Assembly: GCA_015663075.1 (NCBI GenBank)
Contig: DQSV01000074.1
Coordinates: forward strand, 1-33,932
Length of the DNA stretch: 33,932 bases
Direction of reading: 5' to 3'
From: Methanothermococcus okinawensis
Lineage (GTDB): Archaea > AGJL01 > Methanococci > Methanococcales > Methanococcaceae
Positions 4,350-18,435 of the stretch are shown piece by piece (within the stretch, counting starts at the first letter, position 1; every line of letters starts with the position of its first letter). Under the pieces are notes generated by a model. The model worked only from the letters and a program-made list of their open reading frames with translations, was not told the origin of the DNA and did not search any database. Made by a program: the position numbers and the translations under genes.

Positions 4350-4964
4350 ATGAAAAAGAGCCTTATAAAAAAAGCACTTAAATTGAGAGATGCAGGACTT
4401 TCAACTGTGGATATTGCAGAGGAGTTAAATACATCAGTAGATACTGCCCTTTATTTAATATTAAATGGGGAGAAACTTCTAAAGGAGCCTGAAGAAAAAA
4501 TTAACAAAATAGAGAGTAGGACAGATATATTTGTAAATTGGGATAATGTCAAAACCTCCTCAAAGAGACTGAAGAATATTACCTCAATTATGTGTGATAT
4601 GTTAAATACTATAGATTTTGATGTTATTCTTGGAATATCAACAGGAGGAGTTCCCTTAGCAACCCTAATGTCAGAGAAATTGGATAAAAATTTTTCCATA
4701 TATATCCCTAAAAAACATCTCCATGGCAATGGTAAAACTGGATTTGTTGGACATAATTATCAGGACATGGAAAATAAGAATATAGTTATTGTGGATGATG
4801 TAATGACATCAGGAAATACCATGAGAGAAACTATAAATTACATAAAAAATATTGGAAACCCAAAGGGGGCCATTGTTGTAATTGATAAAAGTGGAATTGA
4901 AGAAATAGGGGGTATTCCTATTAAGGCCCTATTTAGGGTGGGAACTGTAGAATTAATTAAATAA
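4350..4964 (+). CDS. gfcR: HTH-phosphoribosyltransferase regulator (GfcR / PyrE-like), 204 aa
   Basis: An N-terminal helix-turn-helix (about residues 8-42, [20 protein letters not shown]) is fused to a type I phosphoribosyltransferase domain. The PRPP-binding motif [12 protein letters not shown] is at 147-158 and a substrate loop [12 protein letters not shown] at 96-107. This architecture is that of archaeal orotate-PRTase-like proteins; the haloarchaeal member GfcR acts as a transcriptional regulator of sugar metabolism, and others were annotated PyrE2. Whether this copy is an enzyme, a regulator, or both is not visible; the HTH argues for DNA binding. The start follows GGTGGT at 4339-4344. 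It is convergent with the four-CBS gene, with T-tracts on both strands between. Confidence 0.75.
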
Positions 4965-5026: not shown

Positions 5027-6226
5027 TTATTCCAATGTCTTTTTAATGTTCTTAGGATGCTTTTTTTCCTTGTCTATCTCAATTTGTTTTAAAACTGAAT
5101 CTAATGCATCCTTTAATACCTCTATAAAGTCCCATCTCTGCTTTTCTGATATTAATATCATATCTTCTCCATCCATTTCTATCCTTTTGGTGGTTGATAA
5201 TTTGGGCTTTCCCTCTCCCACATAAAGTTTTCTCGGGGTCTTTACATATACCTTAACATCATAGTAGGATACATCTCCTCCCTTATCATGCTCCTTTTTT
5301 ATGGATATTTTTATCCAGTGGATCCTTTTTGAATACTTAACTATTTTTTTAACCTCTGTCATTAGTATTCTCTCAGCCAATTCCCTCATATCCTCGTCAA
5401 ATTCACCGTGAATCTCCACTTCAATTACAGATTCCCTTCTCAATTCCATTATATATTTCATTATATCTATTCTTGTTACAATACCCCTTAATGTACCCCT
5501 TTTAACCACTGGTACTCCTCTAATATCATGTTTCTCCATGAGTTTAGCCACATCGGCAATAGTGGAGTCTATTTCTATGGTTATTAGTGGAGTGTTCATT
5601 ATAATAGATACTGGCTGGGACATTCTTGGAACTTTTTCTCCAACTACCTCTCCAAGGGTCATTCTTTTTTTAGGTTTATATACCTTTTTTAAAATATCAT
5701 CCTCAGTAACTATTCCTGTAGGATTGCCCTCTCTATCCAATACTATCAATCTACCAATATTGTATTTTCTCATTAGACTTCTAGCCTTACCTATGCTATC
5801 ATCTATGCCAATTGTAATTGGGTTCCTTGTCATTATTTTGGTTATTTTAACCTCTTTTAATAATTCAGAATTACCTGCTGTTTTCATTATATCGTAATCT
5901 GTTACAATACCAACTAACTTTCCATTATCATCCACTATTGGGGCTGCCCTTTGGCCACTCTCTATTATTTCACATACTGCATCCATTACTGGAGTATTCT
6001 GATTTATACAGTGAGGCCTAAACATTAGTGTTTCAACACTTTCATTTAATGAAGAGGCTAAGAGTAAATCGTGCATGGTTACTAAGTATATATCTTCATT
6101 GTCCAGAACTATTAAATTGTGGAAGTGGTGTTTTTCCATTATACCTATTGCCTTGGATATTGGGGTATCAGGGGTAATTGTAACGGGATTCTTTGTTGCA
6201 ATCTCCATTATTGGTTTATTTAACAT
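5027..6226 (-). CDS. Four-CBS-domain protein with HPF/RaiA-like C-terminal domain, 399 aa
   Basis: Four CBS repeats occupy about residues 7-58, 67-118, 128-182 and 205-262, each ending in a (G)IVT-x-x-D-I-like strand and turn. Residues about 265-390 form a separate domain: a beta strand (VIEVEIHG), a helix (DEDMRELAERILMTEVKKIV), strands (IHWIKISIK; YYDVKVYVKT; KLYVGEG) and a terminal helix (WDFIEVLKDALDSVLKQIE) before a basic tail. That beta-alpha-beta-beta-beta-alpha order and the spacing resemble ribosome hibernation factors of the HPF/RaiA family; this is inference from pattern, not a database match. If right, the protein would couple nucleotide sensing to ribosome inactivation. The start is fixed by GGTGAG 5 nt before the ATG. 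Confidence 0.75.
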   Translation of the reverse strand: MLNKPIMEIATKNPVTITPDTPISKAIGIMEKHHFHNLIVLDNEDIYLVTMHDLLLASSLNESVETLMFRPHCINQNTPVMDAVCEIIESGQRAAPIVDDNGKLVGIVTDYDIMKTAGNSELLKEVKITKIMTRNPITIGIDDSIGKARSLMRKYNIGRLIVLDREGNPTGIVTEDDILKKVYKPKKRMTLGEVVGEKVPRMSQPVSIIMNTPLITIEIDSTIADVAKLMEKHDIRGVPVVKRGTLRGIVTRIDIMKYIMELRRESVIEVEIHGEFDEDMRELAERILMTEVKKIVKYSKRIHWIKISIKKEHDKGGDVSYYDVKVYVKTPRKLYVGEGKPKLSTTKRIEMDGEDMILISEKQRWDFIEVLKDALDSVLKQIEIDKEKKHPKNIKKTLE

Positions 6227-6415
6227 AACATCTCACCTTTAATATTTTAGTATAAATTTAATAAATGTTTAGAGGGTAATATAATATTATAAAAGAAATG
6301 CCTTAGGATATATTTAAACTTTTTTAATTTAAGAATTAAAAAGATATATTTAAAAATAATTTATAAAAATTAATTTATACAATAAATATAAAAAATAAAA
6401 TTAAAATCAATATAA

Positions 6416-16970: not shown

Positions 16971-17849
16971 ATGAGTGTAATAATTGGATACTATGGAAAC
17001 AATGGGGCAGTAATTGCAGGAGATAAGCGAAATATTATATTTAGGGGAGATCCTAAAAAGAGGGAAGAACTTGAAAAAAGTTTGTATTCTGGAAAAATAA
17101 AAAGTGATGAAGATTTAAAAGAAAAGGCCAGTGAATTAGGGATAAAAATATATATTGAAGATGAAAGGACTAAAATAAAAAAAGTAAATAATGTTCTAAT
17201 TGGGGAGGTTAAATCCATAGGCCTCAACTCCCAGAGGAGAAAGATGTATTTAACAAAGGGAAAATGTGCCATTGTGGATATATTGAACGATGAAATTACA
17301 AAAAAATCCCTTAAAGAAGGCATGGGGCTTATTATTTTTGGAAATAAATATTTAAAAGAAATAGTCCAGAAAGAATTAAAAAAATATATGTATGATTTTG
17401 GAAGAATGGAAATTGAAGAGATAAAGAACATAATAGAGGAAGTTCTAAGAAAATGTGATGGCCCAACATTATCTGAGGAATTTGATATAATTTATATTGA
17501 TGAAAGGGAAATTGATCTGGAAAAAATTATTGAACAGGATATAAAAGAATTAAGGGAATATCGGGAAAAATTAAGACAAAAAATGATAGATTTTAAAAGA
17601 GTAATGGCAATTGCAGATAAAATAGAAAATAATGGAGAAGTGGGCATTATTAAAGATGGAAAACTTCTTTTAAATGATGAACATTTGGCTATAGATAAAA
17701 TATGTCCAAATCCAAAAAAATTCAGAGAAATAGATATTGAGGGAGAGATAAAGGAGGGGGATGTCATAATAATAGAAGATGGTACTTTAAAAATTAGGGG
17801 CAGAAATGAAGTTCCAATTAAAACAAACTATATTATATGTAAACGGTAA
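16971..17849 (+). CDS. Proteasome-like (Ntn-hydrolase fold) protein of unknown function, DUF2121-like, 292 aa
   Basis: The N-terminus MSVIIGYYGNNGAVIAGDKR copies the opening of proteasome beta subunits. If the initiator Met is removed, Ser is residue 1 and Asp and Arg fall at 17 and 19, exactly where proteasome catalytic subunits have their D/E17 and R19. The Lys33 equivalent is probably in TKIKKVNNVLIGEVKSIG, after an insertion of about 35 charged residues. A C-terminal extension (about 190-292) is unlike proteasome subunits. I believe this is the methanogen family called DUF2121. No neighbour hints at a substrate; autoprocessing or peptidase activity is inference. GGGTGAT stands before the ATG. 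Confidence 0.7.
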   Translation: MSVIIGYYGNNGAVIAGDKRNIIFRGDPKKREELEKSLYSGKIKSDEDLKEKASELGIKIYIEDERTKIKKVNNVLIGEVKSIGLNSQRRKMYLTKGKCAIVDILNDEITKKSLKEGMGLIIFGNKYLKEIVQKELKKYMYDFGRMEIEEIKNIIEEVLRKCDGPTLSEEFDIIYIDEREIDLEKIIEQDIKELREYREKLRQKMIDFKRVMAIADKIENNGEVGIIKDGKLLLNDEHLAIDKICPNPKKFREIDIEGEIKEGDVIIIEDGTLKIRGRNEVPIKTNYIICKR

Positions 17850-18102: not shown

Positions 18103-18129
18103 AATAATACACGTCTAAAAAAATAAAGG

Positions 18130-18214
18130 TGCGGGGGAGGGGATTTGAACCCCCGAACCCCTATGGGACTAGGCCCTCAACCTAGCGCCTTTGGCCAGAC
18201 TTGGCAACCCCCGC
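18130..18214 (-). tRNA. tRNA-Leu (anticodon GAG)
   Basis: Acceptor GCGGGGG (5' end at 18214) pairs with CCCCCGC, discriminator A at 18130. The anticodon stem CTAGG/CCTAG closes the loop TTGAGGG, giving GAG. A long variable arm (TCCCATAGGGGTTC region) marks it as class II, and the T loop is TTCAAAT. The full 3' CCA is not encoded (CCT follows the discriminator). No intron. Confidence 0.93.
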
Positions 18215-18323: not shown

Positions 18324-18435
18324 GCCGAGGTGGCTTAGGCTGGTCATAGCGCTCGGCTCATACGGATATTCCCAAGGGGTTTCCCTTGGGTCCTGGGAAA
18401 CCGAGAGGTCGGGGGTTCAAGTCCCCCCCTCGGCA
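18324..18435 (+). tRNA. Elongator tRNA-Met (anticodon CAT) with a 37-nt intron
   Basis: Acceptor GCCGAGG (18324-18330) pairs with CCTCGGC (18428-18434), discriminator A at 18435. The anticodon stem CTCGG/CCGAG closes loop CTCATAA once an intron of about 37 nt (18363-18399) is removed at the canonical 37/38 position. The intron holds a perfect 8-bp hairpin CCCAAGGG/CCCTTGGG (18371-18378, 18383-18390). A bulge-helix-bulge form for the tRNA splicing endonuclease is expected. The T arm is GGGGG-TTCAAGT-CCCCC. Intron-bearing elongator tRNA-Met is normal in methanococci. Confidence 0.93.

Follow-up and report, generated by a model that had tools for sequence, protein, structure and literature searches.

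A probable HibA-type ribosome hibernation factor of Methanothermococcus okinawensis and its divergent branch in methane-cycling archaea

HibA and the hibA-type gene of the window

HibA is a family of archaeal hibernation factors, published in April 2026, that plug and protect idle ribosomes and that were found in 47% of archaeal genomes (PMC13324472). The proteins consist of four CBS domains (about residues 1-269) followed by an HPF/RaiA-like domain (about residues 270-387) with two archaeal insertions (b13-a11 and b14-b15), and the Pyrococcus abyssi protein harbors a long PTC loop inside its CBS module (residues 190-207). HibA binds to 70S ribosomes at the sites for tRNA and mRNA and inhibits in vitro translation; its role in hibernation has been shown for P. 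abyssi by cryo-EM, in vitro assays and genetics, and in T. barophilus the deletion of the gene leads to a delayed regrowth and to lower 70S pools. A CBS module that groups with those of the other HibA proteins is a mark of the family, as is genomic exclusion with standalone CBS-module factors (PMC13324472 throughout). The main text of that paper does not name the Methanococcales, and our literature search disclosed no paper on a Methanococcales member of the family and no experiment on any member of the branch described below.

The DNA stretch analysed here in its entirety (the window) is a contig of 33,932 nucleotides from Methanothermococcus okinawensis; its mcr and mtr genes mark it as methanogen DNA, and its nearest named relatives are Methanothermococcus. 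The hibA-type gene is an ORF with an ATG start located on the minus strand (5027..6226) and encoding 399 aa. A Shine-Dalgarno-like GGTGAG, kept in most upstream alignments, precedes the ATG (6232..6237, minus), and a TATA-like element, TTTAAATATAT (6308..6318, minus), identical in the two nearest relatives, is a candidate promoter. The gene is separated by 442 bp from the upstream homoserine dehydrogenase gene, and a convergent phosphoribosyltransferase gene lies downstream; this gap and this convergent neighbor, together with GGTGAG and the TATA-like element, suggest that transcription yields a message for this gene only. Across the Methanococcales no conserved neighborhood exists around it, and none of the flanking genes provides a clue to its function.

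Other features of the window are reported for completeness. The phosphoribosyltransferase (4350-4964, plus strand) has an extra N-terminal stretch that looks helix-turn-helix-like by eye; a small separate two-CBS protein is encoded upstream of prolyl-tRNA synthetase (869-1270, plus), and a Connectase (MJ0548-like) gene is located at 16971-17849 (plus). A 112-nt tRNA (18324-18435, plus; Rfam, 54 bits), missed by ARAGORN, is probably an intron-containing tRNA gene, and it is adjoined by a tRNA-Leu on the opposite strand (18128-18214).

Architecture of the encoded protein

Four CBS stretches were recognized by Pfam (PF00571 x4, E=4.7e-54), forming two Bateman pairs in a CBS module that spans residues 1-262 (5441..6226, minus). 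The best sequence match in PDB is P. abyssi HibA (Pab0961 / TK1186; PDB 9SR9-9SRF, 9T7H), whose 9SR9 chain H was retrieved with E=2e-31 by the single sequence and 1e-39 by a Methanococcales profile, whereas the other ribosome-bound CBS proteins obtained lower sequence scores. A single collinear alignment runs through the four CBS domains and the loop and covers the greater part of the C-terminal domain, the identity being about 28% in the CBS module and about 21% in the C-terminal domain. The two proteins share the length, the order of a four-CBS module followed by an HPF/RaiA-like domain, the PTC-loop motif and the CBS3/4 nucleotide motifs; they differ in that the window protein has an insert and an intact T..D motif in CBS2. 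Since no 9SR entry is present among the best 50 Foldseek matches listed for the full-length model (PDB library to 8 April 2026), it is the sequence, and not a structure comparison, that links the window protein to HibA itself.

The putative PTC loop, corresponding to residues 184-206 (KPKKRMTLGEVVGEKVPRMSQPV; 5609..5677, minus), is modeled with low pLDDT and aligns with the P. abyssi one (KPRFKAQYGELAGEKIPPFSMKL). In this alignment (KPKKRMTLGEVVGEKVPRM versus KPRFKAQYGELAGEKIPPF) a GE-xx-GEK motif is common to both proteins, and the loop glycines G192 and G196 are invariant in 60/60 relatives and are found in 19 of the 20 classical HibA proteins.

A previous sequence-only reading of this gene had proposed that the four CBS domains are followed, at residues about 265-390, by a domain with the strand-helix-strand-strand-strand-helix order of HPF/RaiA. 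Pfam and AlphaFold2, the latter both on the full length and on the domain alone, agree with this architecture. In the full-length model (alignment of 28 Methanococcales sequences; mean pLDDT 79.9) the elements are E269-274, H278-299, E304-313, E320-329, E334-339 and H356-389, so that the domain covers residues 269-389 (5060..5422, minus); the same order was obtained by folding the domain alone (47 sequences; pLDDT 71, pTM 0.64), the models being of moderate confidence. When the isolated domain was compared with the 350,542 chains of PDB by Foldseek, HPF, RaiA, YfiA and plastid pY filled essentially the whole top 25, with E values from 3.6e-4 (Vibrio HPF, the best one) to 0.03 and, in the case of P. 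urativorans RaiA, a TM of 0.71 by target length. A fold unrelated to HPF, which would have spoken against the earlier reading, is thus not what the prediction gives, and these matches, with the conservation of the gene among the Methanococcales, show that the resemblance is no accident. The bacterial HPF/RaiA proteins (YfiA, protein Y) share this b-a-b-b-b-a fold and are the top structural matches; unlike the window protein, the structures matched have no CBS module.

The sequence of the same domain gives much fainter signals. Pfam and NCBIfam assign only CBS domains to the protein, with no match of their own for the last 137 residues; the Pfam HPF family PF02482 does not match the window protein and scores above its cut-off in 0/36 Methanococcales genomes, touching the C-terminal domains of 3/32 relatives below the cut-off (best E=0.0039). 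A phmmer search of PDB with the C-terminal part alone gave chance matches only, and the C-terminal profile of the subfamily found no HPF in PDB by sequence; the RecA repeat chains that this profile did retrieve were discarded as an artefact, their score deriving only from summed weak copies. In a single hhalign comparison with the classical HibA C-terminal domains the profile match spans the domain (E=0.0014, probability 17.7%), and a profile of the classical domains found nothing usable in any of the 36 Methanococcales genomes. The assignment to HPF is carried by structural rather than by sequence evidence.

Within the domain, the b14-b15 segment (KKEHDKGGDVSYY) aligns with that of P. abyssi HibA (RRFNEKFRGVHLY), and the b13-a11 segment is about 3 aa shorter. 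The domain also has an insert between the last strand and the last helix (residues 340-364; 5135..5209, minus), which measures 23-30 aa in 60/60 relatives versus 2 aa in the 20/20 classical HibA proteins and in P. abyssi; its residues about 344-356 have a pLDDT below 50.

When the full-length model was searched against PDB, the fold of the CBS module matched ribosome-bound SriA/B and Dri, and also MJ1225 and AMPK gamma. Four-CBS modules have been solved on archaeal ribosomes in the case of SriA-SriD of Methanosarcina acetivorans (9ZNF, 9ZNG, 9ZNI) and of Dri of Pyrobaculum (9E6Q); unlike the window protein, these have no HPF domain. The same is true for MJ1225 and AMPK gamma, which share with it the two Bateman pairs and the adenine-nucleotide-binding fold and which, to our knowledge, are not ribosome factors. 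Their likeness, and the existence of HhpR, an archaeal CBS protein known as a transcription regulator (PMC13324472), might suggest that the window protein regulates transcription or an enzyme in an HhpR-like or AMPK-gamma-like manner, its C-terminal domain merely resembling HPF. This is, however, very improbable, given that the C-terminal structure matches HPF/RaiA/pY almost exclusively, that Pfam discloses no DNA-binding domain and that HibA is the best sequence match.

Chain a of PDB 9L96/9L98/9L9C/9L9V, a 406-aa "CBS domain-containing protein", resembles the classical HibA domain in its C-terminal part (E=1.7e-23) and is apparently, judging from its sequence, another solved HibA-like protein; no publication for 9L96 was found in the literature.

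Distribution, phylogeny and genomic exclusion

A single copy of the gene is harbored by 34/36 Methanococcales genomes, with identities of 57-94%. The two draft genomes with no copy (96% and 86% complete) belong to the same genus as the window genome, and the missing copy may represent either a loss or an assembly gap. Outside the order, relatives with 52-56% identity were retrieved from records named Methanoliparum and ANME-1/Methanophagales and from one Methanomicrobiales MAG. Among 295 genomes of the Methanoliparum phylum, strong matches (E<1e-60) and weak ones (mostly 1e-25 to 1e-39) form two clearly separated groups. The 20 proteins used here as classical HibA are of the P. abyssi kind and were taken from the group of weak matches; all of them show PF02482 similarity in their C-terminal domain, and a profile built from them retrieves P. 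abyssi HibA with E=1.8e-26. A locus considered as a broken HibA paralogue on account of nine "stops" was rejected, as it encodes an ordinary 158-aa two-CBS protein. On the whole, the window protein probably belongs to a divergent branch of HibA common to Methanococcales and some other methane-cycling archaea.

The relationship between this branch and the classical one was analysed on a tree of the CBS modules, in which the P. abyssi, Dri and Sri references were pieced together from printed alignments, with parts missing. The window branch (100/100), classical HibA (91/87) and SriA with the N-terminal module of Dri (Dri-N; 99/95) are each recovered, and the two HibA groups join weakly (73/56); the data do not reject a tree in which SriA is the neighbor of the window branch (p 0.32). 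Given this weak branching among the window group, classical HibA and the SriA/Dri modules, and a C-terminal domain that has diverged strongly and has an insert of its own, the window branch might derive from an independent fusion between a CBS module and an HPF-like domain; its likeness to classical HibA would then reflect convergence instead of orthology, with both acting alike. We consider such an origin decidedly unlikely: the best tree still joins the two HibA groups, the PTC-loop motif is common to both and the proteins are collinear over their full length.

For 60 genomes from the Methanoliparum phylum, sorted into groups by hand from match tables, the co-occurrence with standalone CBS ribosome factors was scored; one genome with a single weak match was counted as having no HibA, since that match is the SriC-type gene itself. 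Modules of the SriA/SriC type are present in 0/6 genomes with the window-type gene, in 0/14 with classical HibA and in 34/40 without HibA; for 0/6 versus 34/40 the Fisher test gives 1e-4, a value that refers to small numbers of related, hence not independent, genomes and that includes no kinship correction. In the Methanococcales genomes, a search with SriA retrieves no gene other than the hibA-type one, and a search with SriC retrieves none. The published exclusion pattern is thereby extended to the divergent branch, which suggests that this branch performs the same job.

Function, nucleotide binding and biological meaning

On the basis of the best PDB sequence match, the HPF/RaiA fold, the PTC-loop motif and the genomic exclusion, it is very probable that the window protein is a HibA-type ribosome hibernation factor; the predicted fold, the collinearity with P. 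abyssi HibA and the exclusion also sustain the hibernation function advanced in the sequence-only reading. Its ribosome binding, translation inhibition and ribosome preservation are deduced from the HibA proteins of P. abyssi and T. barophilus. By analogy with them, when cells starve or grow slowly, the HPF/RaiA-like domain at the C-terminus would occupy the small-subunit channel for mRNA and tRNA; the tethered four-CBS module would fill tRNA sites of the large subunit, and loop 184-206 would reach the peptidyl-transferase centre; initiation would be blocked and the idle 70S particles would be protected until growth resumes.

It had also been proposed that the protein switches ribosomes off according to energy status, the CBS pairs controlling, through the AMP or ATP that they bind, the engagement of the ribosome by the HPF domain. 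Across 60 relatives the adenosine-site motifs of three CBS domains vary little or not at all: T109..D112 in CBS2 (5891..5902, minus) in 60/60; T174..D177 in CBS3 (5696..5707, minus) in 60/60, as well as in 20/20 classical HibA; and T251..D254 in CBS4 (5465..5476, minus), with T in 60/60 and D in 58/60. In CBS1 (T50..D53; 6068..6079, minus) D is found in 59/60 and position 50 is N, T or S. P. abyssi HibA binds AMP, one per module, with a Kd of 12 uM, the CBS3/4 pair being the AMP/ATP site (PMC13324472). The window protein retains the CBS2 motif that P. abyssi has lost (S..A), from which a second nucleotide site may be predicted in the first CBS pair. Nevertheless, neither AMP nor ATP had a clear effect on the binding of HibA to ribosomes or on its conformations on them (PMC13324472), and conserved motifs do not imply such an effect and may reflect only the stability of the fold or the regulation of another partner. 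The energy switch is in our opinion a rather unlikely, although conceivable, property of this hibernation factor.

The idea that the gene encodes a previously unknown kind of factor has been overtaken by the HibA paper of April 2026 (PMC13324472); since the kind is already published, the remaining novelty may reside in the divergent, insert-bearing branch of methane-cycling archaea. In Methanococcus maripaludis under formate limitation, the ribosomal protein fraction is reported to be constant across growth rates and the polysome fraction to be only about 10% at the slowest growth (PMC12923902). It might be imagined that a separate methanogen/ANME branch of CBS-HPF proteins, possibly with a fusion of its own, uses the insert as an extra ribosome contact absent from classical HibA, has two working nucleotide sites instead of one, and preserves the many ribosomes that stand idle in slowly growing Methanococcus; as a whole, this combination is unlikely. 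With the present finding, HibA comes to include a branch that goes undetected by the HPF family profiles. The data on M. maripaludis raise the question of how the idle majority of ribosomes gets silenced and preserved, and a hibA-type gene is carried by nearly every Methanococcales genome, where the searches disclosed no CBS hibernation factor of the SriA/SriC type.
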